Shown here in pieces: positions 4,365 to 40,504 of a DNA stretch of 64,000 nucleotides. The notes under the pieces were generated by a model, which made no database searches, was not told the origin of the DNA, and saw nothing but the letters and a program-made list of their open reading frames with translations. The stretch comes from Gemmatimonadota bacterium (GTDB lineage: Bacteria > Gemmatimonadota > Gemmatimonadetes > Gemmatimonadales > Gemmatimonadaceae), in assembly GCA_021324635.1 (NCBI GenBank), contig JAJPIS010000107.1:124001-188000 (forward strand), written 5' to 3'. The translations under genes and the position numbers were made by a program. The stretch's first letter is position 1. Every line of letters begins with the position of its first letter.

Positions 4365-5847
4365 CGGCCGGAGCCTCCGGTCGCGACGGCGTGCGCAGGG
4401 GCGGCGCCGCCGGCGTCACGTACAGGTCGGCCCGGGTCCGCGGGAGCCTGACGACGCCGACCGGCGCCGCTTTCGCGAACAGCACCTGCGCCAGCCCGAT
4501 GCGCCGACTCGCAAACGCCTGAGCCGACGCGGCCATGTAGAGCCGCCAGGCGCGGTAGCGCTCCGAGCCGACGAGATGCTTCGCCCGTGGCGCCGCGGCC
4601 TCGAGCCGGCGCACCCAATGGCGCAGGGTCTGGACGTAGTGCTCACGTAGGGATTCGACATCGCGCACCTCGAATCCCGCCGCCTCCCCGGCCTCGACGA
4701 TCTCGCCGAGCCGGAGCAGCTCGCCGTCCGGGAAAATGTACCGATCGATGAACTCGCCCTCGTGCCAGAGGCGGCGCCGGAGCACATCACCCAGGCGCGT
4801 CGACACCGGCGCCGTGACGATCCCGTGGTTGAGGAACAGCCCGCCCGGCGCCGTCAAGCGGAACGCCGCCTGTGCGTAGCGCGCGATCTGTGCGCGACCG
4901 ACGTGCTCGACCATCCCGACACTCACGACTTTGTCGTATGGCCGCTCTTGGTCGACCATGCGGTAGTCGCAGACATCGACTCGACACTGCTCCGTGAGCC
5001 CGGCCGCGGCGATGCGCTCTCGCGCCAGCGTCGCCTGGGCGGGGCTGAGGGTGATGCCGTGTGCCTCGACGCCGTATCGCGCCGCGGCGTACATCACCAG
5101 ACCGCCCCAGCCGCATCCGATGTCCAGTAACCGCTCCCCCGGGTGCAGCCGTAGCTTCCGGCAGATGTGCTCGAGCTTCGCCTCCTGCGCGCGGTCGAGA
5201 TCCTCCGTTCCCGTCTCGAAGTACGCGCACGAATACACGAGTCGGCGGTCGAGCCAGAGGGCGTAGAAGTCGTTGCCGATGTCGTAGTGCGCCCGGATGG
5301 CCATCGCGTCCCGGCGCGGCGCATGGCGCCTGGGCCATCGCGTGAGCCGCCGGCCGCTGCGCGCGGCGTGCGACCGAGGCACGTCGGATCGGCGTGGGAG
5401 CCGAGTGAGGGCGCCGAGCACACGCATCGCGGTCGACGGATCGGCCAGCCGGTCCCGAAGTTGACGTCCGACGGTCTGCGCGACCTCGAGGTCCCCCTCC
5501 ACCTCGAACGCACCCTCGACGTAGGACGCGCCGAGTCTGAGCTCCGACGGGGGGAGGAGCATCCGCCGCAGCGACGCCGCGTCGTGCAGAACGAGTGTGA
5601 ATTGCGGTCGCGTACTGTCTGGCGGGCGCTCGACCGTCCCGTCCCAGAGACGCACCGCGAAGGCCCGCGCCTCCGGCGGGCCGAAGACGAGGCTCAGTGC
5701 GTGTCGCGTCCGCTGGATGACGGCATCCGCATCGCCACCGGCCGGGGAACGACCCTCGACACCTGTCGGCCTCTCACCCCCGCCACCTGACCGCCCCGGG
5801 CCGGGCCGACTGGGCCGGCCGACAGGCGGTTCTCGTGTCGTTGCCAT
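4315..5847 (-). CDS. cfa: Cyclopropane-fatty-acyl-phospholipid synthase family methyltransferase
   Basis: The protein has 510 residues with a typical CFA/mycolic acid cyclopropane synthase core. HYDIGNDFYALWLD (187-200) and YSCAYF (205-210) lie before the SAM-binding motif DIGCGWGG (242-249), and VGMVEHVG follows. Such enzymes transfer a methylene group from S-adenosylmethionine to the double bond of unsaturated acyl chains in membrane phospholipids. The first 40 or so residues are Gly/Pro/Arg-rich and poorly conserved in kind, so the true start may be further in. The N-terminal domain of about 100 residues before the catalytic core matches the lipid-binding part of the long bacterial forms. 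No lipid genes adjoin it. The exact product (cyclopropane or methyl-branched chain) is not determined. Confidence 0.88.
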   Translation of the reverse strand: MATTREPPVGRPSRPGPGRSGGGGERPTGVEGRSPAGGDADAVIQRTRHALSLVFGPPEARAFAVRLWDGTVERPPDSTRPQFTLVLHDAASLRRMLLPPSELRLGASYVEGAFEVEGDLEVAQTVGRQLRDRLADPSTAMRVLGALTRLPRRSDVPRSHAARSGRRLTRWPRRHAPRRDAMAIRAHYDIGNDFYALWLDRRLVYSCAYFETGTEDLDRAQEAKLEHICRKLRLHPGERLLDIGCGWGGLVMYAAARYGVEAHGITLSPAQATLARERIAAAGLTEQCRVDVCDYRMVDQERPYDKVVSVGMVEHVGRAQIARYAQAAFRLTAPGGLFLNHGIVTAPVSTRLGDVLRRRLWHEGEFIDRYIFPDGELLRLGEIVEAGEAAGFEVRDVESLREHYVQTLRHWVRRLEAAAPRAKHLVGSERYRAWRLYMAASAQAFASRRIGLAQVLFAKAAPVGVVRLPRTRADLYVTPAAPPLRTPSRPEAPAATGSERSFRPTEPDGR

Positions 5848-24110: not shown

Positions 24111-24701
24111 ATGATGACGACGGGATCGACGAACGAGCGGACAGCGTCAGCGCCCGAGGCGGCGACCCCAGCATCCTGGCGGGGGTTGCGCGACGCCATG
24201 CTCGCCATGCTGGCCGACCATGGCTACGCGGTCGATGCGCGCTGCGACGGGCAGGACCTTCGCTTCCACGCCGTCACGAGCGACGAGCGCCGATGGCGCA
24301 CGCAGGTCCTCATCGACGAGCGACACCCGGTCGCCCGGCTGTACGTCTATCTGGACCTCAACTATCCAGCCCATCAACGCCTCTGGGTCCTGGAGCTGGT
24401 GTGCCGCATCAACACGCTGCTCGCGATCGGCGCGTTCGATTTCGAGTGGGACAGCGGCGCGGTCACGTTTCGCCACGGCCGAGACTTTACAGGTCAGTCG
24501 ATCGACGGCGCCCACGCCGCACAGCTCCTCAAGGTGGCGGTCGTTGCGCTCCGGCTCTTCACGCGCGCGTACGCCTACCGGTCGACATCCGATGTCACGC
24601 CCGCCGGCGCCATCGACGCCGCGCGAGTCGCCGAGGATCTCGCCGACGACGGAGTCAGCTCGAACGCCGGGCGGCGCGCATTGGTGCGCCTGCTGAAGTG
24701 A
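24111..24701 (+). CDS. YbjN-like sensory/chaperone-fold domain protein
   Basis: The 196-residue protein has an N-terminal linker (about 20 residues) and then a domain with the shape of YbjN/type III chaperone-like folds: AMLADHGYAVDARCDGQDLRF, TQVLIDERHPVARLYVYLDL, and CRINTLLAIGAFDFEWDSGAVTF, followed by a helical RTxAYRST part. Such domains are alpha-beta dimers of unclear function that often bind partner proteins. Two adjacent ATG codons at 24111/24114 follow a run of G that may serve as ribosome site. It could form a unit with the ANTAR regulator downstream. Confidence 0.65.
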   Translation: MMTTGSTNERTASAPEAATPASWRGLRDAMLAMLADHGYAVDARCDGQDLRFHAVTSDERRWRTQVLIDERHPVARLYVYLDLNYPAHQRLWVLELVCRINTLLAIGAFDFEWDSGAVTFRHGRDFTGQSIDGAHAAQLLKVAVVALRLFTRAYAYRSTSDVTPAGAIDAARVAEDLADDGVSSNAGRRALVRLLK

Positions 24702-24715
24702 GCGACCGGCGGCCC

Positions 24716-24868
24716 GTCACAGACTGCCACGCTGGTGTCACACTTCACGACAGCGCCCGCGGTCATCCTGTGATTCTGGTCACCGCCTGCGACAGAGTGA
24801 CCGCCTAACATCCTCCTGGCACCCGTCACGAGTGCGCGGCCGTGCACAATCCCGCGCGAAAGCGTGAC
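24716..24868. promoter_or_regulatory. Cluster of GTCAC/GTGAC pentamers upstream of the ANTAR gene
   Basis: Six GTCAC or GTGAC pentamers occur in the 200-base gap before the ANTAR regulator: 24716, 24737, 24779, 24797, 24825 and 24864. Several fall in longer near-repeats such as GGTGTCAC, GGTCACCG and AGTGACCG. They could be operator half-sites. No factor is known to bind them, so this is a candidate only. Confidence 0.35.
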
Positions 24869-24901: not shown

Positions 24902-25786
24902 ATGGCCGGACGACACTCGAGAGCTGAAGTGCCGCGTGCCGACCTGACCCGGGCGGCAGCCGCTGCTCGGCCCCGCGAGACAGCGCGGAACACGCCACCG
25001 GATGGCACCGCGCGCGTTCCCTACCGTATCCTGCTCGCCGAGGGTCGCGCCACGGCCAAGTCGGAACTGTCGAAGCGGTTGACGCAGCTCGGGCACGAGG
25101 TCCTCGGCCGCGTCACGACCGCCCAGGGCGCCATGGACTACGCCGCCCTGCTGCACCCCGACGTCGTCGTCCTGGCGCCGGTCCTCGAGGACGGCAGCGG
25201 GCTCACGACGGCGATCGCGGTCATCCGCGCCAATCCCGGCGCCGCCGCCGTGGTCCTCACGGGCCATCCCGCCGCCGCCGATCCCTCCGCTCGGCCAAAC
25301 TGGGGCGCGGTCGCCGTGATGCCCGTCGACGCGGCCCCCGATGACCTTGGCGCCGAGCTGCGCAGGGTGATTGCGCGCGCCCGTGCGGCACCGTCCGCCG
25401 CCCAGCCGGTCGGCCCGTCCGCCGATAGCAGCGCCGACGCCCTCGCCGACCCGCTCGCCGACGTCTCGTTGGAGGAGCTACCCGGGGCAGCGCCGGACAC
25501 CCCGCGTCCGGGCGCCGCTGCCGCAGCGCCGCCATCCGCCGCGCAGGCGTCCGTGCCGCCGCTGTCCGTGGCGCCGCTGTCCGTGCCGGAGCCGAGCGAC
25601 GATGAGCTTGTCCGACGGGCAGCCGAGTGCCTGCTCGAGCGGACTGGACTATCGCATCTCGACGCGATGCGGCTGATGGAGGCCGAAGCGGCCGATTCCG
25701 GGCAGTCGCTGGCCCACGTCGCCCGTGGCGTGCTCGGGGAAGAGCAGGGCGCCCCGGAAAGCGGAGCGGTCGCGGCCGTGGCGTGA
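24902..25786 (+). CDS. ANTAR-domain regulator with degenerate receiver domain
   Basis: The 294-residue protein starts at ATG 24902 after AGGAAGGA. Residues 41-160 have the receiver fold (YRILLAEGRATAKSELSKRL, LGHEVLGRVTTAQGAMDYA, HPDVVVLAPVLEDGSG), but the acceptor Asp is Ala92 and the usual invariant Lys is Met140, so it cannot be phosphorylated in the normal way. An Ala/Pro linker of about 75 residues, with a near-duplicate PLSVAPLSVPEP, precedes an ANTAR domain at 233-278 (AAECLLERTGLSHLDAMRLM then SLAHVARGVL). ANTAR domains bind two-stem-loop RNA elements and act as antiterminators. Signal input may come from a ligand or a partner protein. Confidence 0.8.
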   Translation: MAGRHSRAEVPRADLTRAAAAARPRETARNTPPDGTARVPYRILLAEGRATAKSELSKRLTQLGHEVLGRVTTAQGAMDYAALLHPDVVVLAPVLEDGSGLTTAIAVIRANPGAAAVVLTGHPAAADPSARPNWGAVAVMPVDAAPDDLGAELRRVIARARAAPSAAQPVGPSADSSADALADPLADVSLEELPGAAPDTPRPGAAAAAPPSAAQASVPPLSVAPLSVPEPSDDELVRRAAECLLERTGLSHLDAMRLMEAEAADSGQSLAHVARGVLGEEQGAPESGAVAAVA

Positions 25787-25819: not shown

Positions 25820-26092
25820 GTGTCACGAGCATTCGTCAACGAAGACGCCGGTGGCGAGCGGGCGCGGTCGCGCGTGGCGCTACCGGCGCGTGATGACCCG
25901 GAGTATGATGCCGCCGCGGCCGAGGCGCTGCTCGAGGGCGCCCGTGCCGGTGAGACGGGCAGCGCCGAAGCAGCGACCGGATACTACTGGGGCGAGCGGC
26001 GCTTACGACCCTTCGTCGAGCGCATCCGTGAGCGCGCGGCGGTCGCGGGTGACGAGCGGCTGGTTCAGCTCGCGGAGCGGTTTCTCCGGTAG
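25820..26092 (+). CDS. Small conserved-looking protein (MSRAFV...), unknown function
   Basis: The 90-residue product begins at GTG 25820, seven bases after a GGAGG site. Residues read MSRAFVNEDAGG at the start, a beginning seen in Gre-family and Gre-neighbour proteins. Then come DPEYDAAAAEALLEGARAG, ETGSAEAATGYYWGER and a terminal EIR-like helix (GDERLVQLAERFLR). It has no Gre coiled coil. It follows the ANTAR gene by 33 bases and its last 90 bases overlap the 3' end of the convergent MMPL gene. I do not know its function. Confidence 0.65.
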   Translation: MSRAFVNEDAGGERARSRVALPARDDPEYDAAAAEALLEGARAGETGSAEAATGYYWGERRLRPFVERIRERAAVAGDERLVQLAERFLR

Positions 26093-39529: not shown

Positions 39530-39970
39530 ACCCGGCCCCCGCCGCGGTCGCGACCCCTGATGACGAACGCCCACTCATCGAGCGAGTGGGCGCACTCCCA
39601 AGCGACCCCCCAGCGACCCCCCAGCTATCCCCTTCCGACAGCGGTCACTCCGCGGCCGTCAGCCGCACGCCTGCGGGTTGATTTGGCAACTGACGCCGAT
39701 CTGGAGCAGAGCGGCGACCATGGGGACCGCCCCGTTGGACACGCGCACCATCGCTGTCAGCGGACCGTGCTCGGTCAGCGTCGGCGGGAGCCACGGGCGG
39801 GGCAAAGCTGGGACGATCACGGCCGCACGAGCACTCATTGGTCCGCTCCCGCAGGCGGTCATTTCAACGGGCTGCGATGGCCATCGCGCTACACTGTCAA
39901 AGACGATGACACCACCCCGAAGGTTACGGACGCCACCCGATCGGACGCGGATCCCCGGCACGCGTGTGAT
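39530..39970. other. Intergenic region, 440 bases, with hairpin repeat and possible small minus-strand ORF
   Basis: After the pentapeptide gene comes a hairpin (39568-39592) and a duplicated GACCCCCCAGC at 39605-39624. On the minus strand, 39659-39862 could encode about 67 residues starting MTACGSGP and ending with a Cys-containing tail (QIGVSCQINPQACG), preceded by a TTTGACA-like box. It lacks a good ribosome site and homologues are unknown, so I list it here rather than as a gene. It might be a remnant. Confidence 0.4.
39568..39592 (+). terminator. Hairpin behind the pentapeptide gene; degraded copy of a dispersed hairpin
   Basis: CGCCCACTC pairs with GAGTGGGCG over nine bases with a 7-base loop, no strong T tract. 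The left flank (GATGACGAACGCCCACTC, 39559-39576) differs by two bases from the left arm of the 19-bp hairpin at 55777, so the two are related elements. It could end transcription of the pentapeptide gene. Confidence 0.6.
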
Positions 39971-40504
39971 TCACGTCACAGTCGACCGGTCAGACGCCTG
40001 CGACCGGCGCCCGGGGGCGAGGAGCTCGAGCTGAAGCTCGAGGCTCTCCCCCGGCTCGAGCGCGAGCCAACGCCGACGGAGTGAGGCCAGCTCGGCGCGC
40101 ATGGCGTGAAGCACCGTGGGGGTCAGGTCCATCGGCCGGTAACCCGGACGCATCTCGCCGCACTTGGTCGCCACGGTGTCGTTGAAGTCCGTCAGCGTGA
40201 GCCGGTGACCGGTCATCGCCTCGAGCGACAGCAGCCCCGCGATCGCCTCGGCCCGGACCGCGTCCACCCCGATGCGCGCCAGCGCGCCGCGGTCGAACTC
40301 GGCAAACGCGGCACCCTGCGCGAGTAAGCCGAGGAAGCCTCCCGACAGGTTCAGCTGGCTCTCCACCACGGCGTGCGCCAGGTCGTGCACCGGGCCGAAG
40401 CCCTCCGCCGGCCCGATCGACGCGCAGTCCGACGAGCCATCGGTGCGCACGACAGTCAGCGACGCGTGAGCGTCGGGCACTTTCTTGAAGCGCAGCGTCA
40501 GCAT
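39971..40504 (-). CDS. Uncharacterised protein, conserved-looking
   Basis: The 177-residue protein starts at ATG 40504 (MLTLRFKKVPDAHASLTVVR). It has a clear HDLAHAVVESQLNLSGGFLG helix containing a HxxxH-like pair, an acidic ILE-rich middle and a C-terminal helix with MRAELASLRRRWLALEPGES. A HDLAH motif in a helix can bind metal, but there is no third ligand I can assign. It diverges from the NHL-type propeller gene with 169 bases between. Function unknown. Confidence 0.6.
   Translation of the reverse strand: MLTLRFKKVPDAHASLTVVRTDGSSDCASIGPAEGFGPVHDLAHAVVESQLNLSGGFLGLLAQGAAFAEFDRGALARIGVDAVRAEAIAGLLSLEAMTGHRLTLTDFNDTVATKCGEMRPGYRPMDLTPTVLHAMRAELASLRRRWLALEPGESLELQLELLAPGRRSQASDRSTVT

Follow-up and report, generated by a model that had tools for sequence, protein, structure and literature searches.

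Canonical response regulators that join a receiver (REC) domain to an ANTAR domain include Rv1626 of M. tuberculosis and EutV of E. faecalis. The structure of EutV with RNA named the residues in contact with the nucleic acid, R142, K143, K149, E160 and Y164 among them (PMC8934654), and NasR was found to require residue R340, which is conserved almost universally, for RNA binding (PMC7496416). Further, five exposed ANTAR residues are strictly conserved, namely three alanines, one alanine or serine and one aromatic residue (PMC3369931). Aspartate-less receivers (ALRs) carrying ANTAR domains are also known, and ANTAR outputs are enriched among them. Their type case is AmiR of Pseudomonas aeruginosa, whose unphosphorylatable receiver is connected by a long coiled coil to an ANTAR-type C-terminal domain and whose action on RNA is controlled by the ligand-binding protein AmiC (PMC4395418, PMC3369931). 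About 70% of ALRs retain a basic residue at the position of the receiver lysine (PMC4395418). Pseudo-receivers (PsR) are common, and their signalling mode is largely unknown (PMC12632262).

The gene discussed here lies in a 64-kb window (the whole stretch of DNA that was analysed) from a Gemmatimonadota genome of 4.09 Mb in 127 contigs. Its product has the domain order and fold of the canonical regulators. What is new is that the phosphorylation site and the RNA surface both appear to be lost in one conserved protein; an aspartate-less receiver–ANTAR protein as such is known from AmiR, and none of the papers searched describes one that has lost its RNA surface too.

Gene and domain layout

The open reading frame was confirmed as a real gene (Table 1). 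The receiver–ANTAR order proposed in an earlier note on this DNA agrees both with Pfam, where the two matches are weak, and with a structure model. Response_reg matches residues 43–139 (E=1.5e-3, below the cut-off) and ANTAR (PF03861) matches residues 235–278 (E=3.5e-5, 23.9 bits in the protein scan against a cut-off of 27.3). The genome profile search gave 27.9 bits for the same ANTAR domain, which is the only ANTAR match of the host genome. In an AlphaFold2 model, built from four sequences only and of moderate confidence in the receiver, strands and helices alternate over residues 42–162 in a CheY-like (beta-alpha)5 fold, and Foldseek matched it to CheY-like receivers with TM-scores on the target of up to 0.75. 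The three-helix signature of ANTAR domains was looked for in the model and is present at residues 233–278, where helices 233–248, 252–266 and 270–278 (pLDDT 83–88) form a bundle. The best PDB matches of the model are the REC–ANTAR proteins Rv1626 and EutV (1s8n, 6ww6/6wsh).

Table 1. Features of the locus, in positions of the window
Feature	Coordinates	Strand	Basis and remarks
REC–linker–ANTAR-like protein, double-degenerate, 294 aa	24902..25786	+	ORF, Pfam, orthologues, purifying selection
Receiver domain, residues 41–162	25022..25387	+	Alignment and structure model; pocket: acid 2 = G48, acceptor = A92, Lys = V142
Pro/Ala-rich disordered linker, residues 163–230	25388..25591	+	pLDDT, fast drift
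ANTAR-like three-helix domain, residues 231–280, RNA-contact residues absent	25592..25741	+	Model, residue table, net charge
Predicted CRP-like operator TGTGATTCTGGTCAC (TGTGA-N6-TCAC)	24769..24783	+	Conserved in orthologues
Possible -10 element TAACAT	24805..24810	+	Inference by eye; class-II CRP spacing
YbjN-like gene	24111..24701	+	PF10722, 27.2 bits; neighbour only, outside the conserved unit
Small conserved gene, 90 aa (MSRAFVNED...)	25820..26092	+	Beside the target gene in all three orthologous loci

Loss of the receiver phospho-pocket

Residues were compared between 28 canonical relatives and a degenerate group of four members, namely the present protein, its same-genus orthologues in the genomes G131 and G132, and a receiver-only protein from another genus. 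The acceptor column reads A/S/S/A in the degenerate group and Asp in 28/28 canonical relatives, which bears out the replacement of the acceptor by Ala92 that had been read from the sequence alone. With a CheY-like fold and no Asp at the acceptor position, the protein falls among the aspartate-less receivers. Like ALRs and PsRs it has Ala or Ser at this position and keeps acid 1 of the acidic pair (E47/G48), but the second Mg2+ ligand is lost: the acid 2 column is G or R in the four degenerate members and D in 28/28 canonical relatives. The loss at G48 had been overlooked in the earlier note. In contrast to most ALRs, the protein has also lost the lysine, the column being V/A/V/L in the four members and K in the canonical relatives. 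The absence of this residue had been recognised before, although its place was given as Met140; gap-free alignment of 'FLPKP' with 'VMPVD' puts the Lys site at Val142 and Met140 opposite Leu, and no Lys occurs within residues 138–145.

A further difference from ALRs is a group-specific motif, HP....P..RP.WG, which replaces the alpha4 region. All four members share H122, P123, P128, R131, P132, W134 and D143, residues that canonical relatives seldom or never have, and the full motif HP....P..RP.WG....D suggests a rebuilt receiver surface around alpha4. With acceptor, acid 2 and Lys all replaced, the proposal of an unphosphorylatable receiver is supported; judged from the alignment, the receiver is not phosphorylatable in the usual way and probably works independently of phosphorylation.

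The linker and the ANTAR-like domain

Canonical relatives have a short linker or coiled coil between the domains, whereas the present protein has residues 163 to about 232, some 70 in all, predicted to be disordered with pLDDT mostly <50. The unusually long Pro/Ala linker described in the earlier note is thus confirmed, at ~70 instead of 75 residues. Its identity among the orthologues is 30–37%.

The residues by which EutV contacts RNA are gone from the ANTAR half, a point overlooked in the earlier note. R142, K143, K149 and E160 of EutV are kept in 28/28 canonical relatives and Y164 in 27, with Phe in the remaining one, whereas the present protein has D234, E235, A241, H252 and M256 at these five positions. 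In the order own/G131/G132 the replacements are D/A/A for R142, which is the same position as the essential R340 of NasR, E/D/D for K143, A/A/A for K149, H/R/R for E160 and M/M/M for Y164. One contact, K147, is retained as Arg, as it is in the canonical relatives. The argument on the RNA surface rests on five positions because other EutV contacts vary in the canonical relatives too, which differ from EutV at R168 (Q), M172 (Q), R175 (S) and R177. Of the five strictly conserved ANTAR residues, A240, A255, A263 and A274, as mapped by alignment, are retained, while the aromatic residue is replaced by Met256 in all three orthologues, so the five-residue signature of an ANTAR domain is broken. Further, the net charge of the domain is -5/-4/-3 (own/G131/G132) compared with about +4 (range +2 to +5) in canonical relatives. 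The label of an RNA-binding regulator, given to the protein in the earlier note, is not supported, with the contact residues replaced in all three orthologues, and the protein probably does not bind RNA; a different surface could still contact RNA or DNA.

Relatives and selection

The orthologues in G131 and G132 are 49–50% identical to the protein overall and share its degenerate state. Between G131 and G132, dN/dS is ~0.11 for the receiver, ~0.05 for the ANTAR-like domain and 0.56 for the linker, with dS near saturation. Because dN/dS is low in both domains while the linker drifts, both domains are taken to be under purifying selection. Only three REC–ANTAR members of the degenerate group are known, all in draft genomes. 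The fourth member (L034/L097) is a receiver alone; at L034 it occupies positions 4609–5103 (genome G020), lies directly downstream of gyrB, ends where a convergent gene begins and carries no ANTAR remnant. Its existence indicates that the receiver can do without the ANTAR domain. In the tree the four members form one clade with 100/100 support and a long stem; the branch order inside the clade is uncertain and the receiver-only branch is long.

Canonical receiver–ANTAR regulators occur in 84 of the 179 genomes searched in the family, which is probably Gemmatimonadaceae, and those proteins are the best matches of the receiver described here. ANTAR matches occur in 87/179, with G131 below the threshold, and score ~27 bits in the degenerate genus compared with 54–83 bits for the main match in the other genomes. 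An order-wide profile search fell from 249 bits (the receiver-only member) to 69 bits beyond the four members. Across 84,980 species, scanning recovered only the same three relatives and two ordinary Actinomycetota response regulators that keep the acceptor Asp; spread of the protein beyond the genus was rejected on these two results. A plasmid search gave no match, nor did an earlier species-wide scan using the protein alone. Among named organisms, the closest relatives are Gemmatimonadetes MAGs recovered at palsa and fen sites and at Centralia.

Promoter and leader

The six GTCAC/GTGAC copies noted earlier upstream of the gene are present (24716–24868) and form the densest 200-bp cluster of the window. 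Since 8/300 dinucleotide shuffles also reach six copies, the cluster is weak evidence alone, and it gains meaning because a conserved CRP-like palindrome sits inside it. An array of direct repeats was rejected, given the weak window-wide excess and the palindrome as the conserved part. The operator accounts for two of the six copies by proximity and for one exactly (24779–24783). TGTGA-N6-TCAC stands at the same place in all three orthologous loci, as TGTGATTGGGGTCAC in G131 and TGTGACTGGGGTCAC in G132, the sole such site in each 18-kb stretch, and the leader from promoter to ATG is not conserved. By shuffling, 0.21 matches would be expected in the window; the whole genome has 23 strand-counted matches compared with 4 for the reversed pattern, and it encodes CRP-type HTH proteins, with a CRP homologue in the region G000:C36:15641-15847. 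The distance from the operator centre to a TAnnnT hexamer, read by eye, is 29–30 bp in all three orthologues, a spacing that possibly fits a class-II CRP promoter. A sigma-70 scan found no full promoter.

Such sites also occur elsewhere in the genome. A second CRP-like site, fully palindromic (TGTGATTCACGTCACA), lies at 39965–39980 of the window, inside or at the end of an ORF on the minus strand (39971–40504). Two sites lie 38 bp apart on contig 102 (G000:C102:39530-39582), and one (G000:C36:15455) is found near a CRP-type regulator gene and upstream of a metallo-hydrolase-like gene.

The leader contains no ANTAR hexaloop (stem of at least 4, loop A1/G4), no terminator and no Rfam match, and its folding is not unusual (z=0.19). 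On these grounds, and with neighbours that are not dedicated to the gene, the suggestion that the locus is a small RNA-level control unit was rejected.

Neighbouring genes and the kinase

The neighbours in the window encode DsbD, pilin, Yip1, YbjN, a 90-aa protein and MMPL. Only the DsbD, 90-aa and MMPL genes accompany the target gene at the orthologous loci, where pilin, Yip1 and YbjN are absent. The YbjN-like gene upstream and the small gene downstream, both listed in the earlier note, are thus real neighbours, but neither qualifies as a dedicated partner. Neither the G131 nor the G132 locus has a match to YbjN. The 90-aa gene, although 77–79% identical at the two orthologous loci, occurs at up to 79% identity in 151/179 family genomes, most of which lack the degenerate protein, and at 27 loci outside the genus no ANTAR, YbjN or MMPL gene lies within ~1.5 kb of it. 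Searches of Pfam and NCBIfam assigned the 90-aa proteins (loci L065–L094) to no family above cut-off; their N-terminus presumably resembles that of GreA/GreB-type proteins. As called in the window, the 90-aa gene (+) and the MMPL transporter gene (-) share 90 bp at their 3' ends (26003–26092), and in G131 they barely overlap.

A hybrid kinase is encoded directly upstream of the canonical gene in six genomes (G113, G102, G008, G119, G044 and G043; 471–1469 bits). The best matches to that kinase in the three genomes of the degenerate genus reach 122–135 bits, which is background and resembles genomes without ANTAR. The absence of the kinase alone is not decisive because several canonical relatives (G121, G129 and G037) lack a strong match too, and an unlinked kinase is a possible partner of the protein.

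Proposed role

Since the phosphate site, the RNA-contact residues and the kinase are lost yet both domains remain under selection, reuse as a protein-binding adaptor is probable. Our preferred reading, to which we give a little better than an even chance, is that the protein is a phosphorylation-independent protein-interaction adaptor, its level governed by a CRP-family activator. The ancestor would have been the receiver–ANTAR response regulator of the family, the present protein being its descendant or a close relative, and three losses would have gone together, those of the phosphorylation pocket, the face that grips RNA and the cognate hybrid kinase. The folded domains are nevertheless strongly constrained, and a long flexible linker now tethers them. 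A CRP-family activator at the promoter would set the amount of protein, which would act through protein contacts made by the rebuilt loop and alpha4 face of the receiver (HP....P..RP.WG....D) and by the three-helix C-terminal domain. Of this reading, the residue losses, the conservation, the missing kinase and the conserved operator are seen in the sequences; the lack of RNA binding, the binding of a partner and activation by CRP are inferred. The fuller statement, that both domains were recycled into a CRP-controlled protein–protein adaptor with a new conserved interaction motif on the receiver, its ANTAR-derived domain having ceased to bind RNA, is put forward tentatively, at just short of an even chance.

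The view favoured in the earlier note, in which the receiver responds to a ligand or partner in place of phosphate and RNA is still bound, corresponds to an AmiR-like regulator whose ANTAR domain grips RNA hairpins to control termination. The precedent of AmiR itself, the enrichment of ANTAR outputs among aspartate-less receivers (PMC4395418, PMC3369931) and the retained alanine and alanine/serine positions speak for it. We nevertheless regard it as unlikely: all three orthologues lack the strict aromatic residue and the contact Arg, Lys and Glu, and the charge of the domain has changed sign; the model has a disordered linker in place of the inter-domain coiled coil of AmiR; and no AmiC-like neighbour, hexaloop, terminator or structured leader is found near the gene. 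A C-terminal domain that kept nucleic-acid binding and switched its target, to DNA or another form of RNA, would account for a three-helix fold that is well predicted and strongly conserved, but it is doubtful for a domain of acidic charge with Glu, Asp, Met and Ala on what used to be the binding face.

That phosphorylation goes on close to the old site, with E96 or D97 of 'LEDG' standing in for the acceptor, is very improbable. E96 is indeed invariant in and specific to the degenerate group, but no substitute acceptor Asp was found nearby, D87 and D97 aligning to Asp residues that canonical members have besides the acceptor; in addition, G or R occupies the place of the second Mg2+ ligand, the Lys has been lost and the linked kinase is absent. 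That the gene is a decaying, functionless remnant, as the lost active-site residues and weak Pfam scores might suggest, is hardly credible, since three species keep the ORF open at ~50% identity, dN/dS is low in both domains, the replacement residues are shared, and synteny and operator are conserved.

Implications

Compared with canonical REC–ANTAR proteins, the adaptor proposed here has lost the phospho-pocket, the RNA-contact residues, the inter-domain helix and the adjacent kinase. It offers a small, datable case in which all of these disappeared in one genus under strong selection, and for which the canonical relatives in sister genera serve as controls. If the ANTAR-like domain binds no RNA, a profile match by itself would be an unsafe basis for annotating ANTAR proteins as RNA binders, and such annotations could be filtered by the contact residues.
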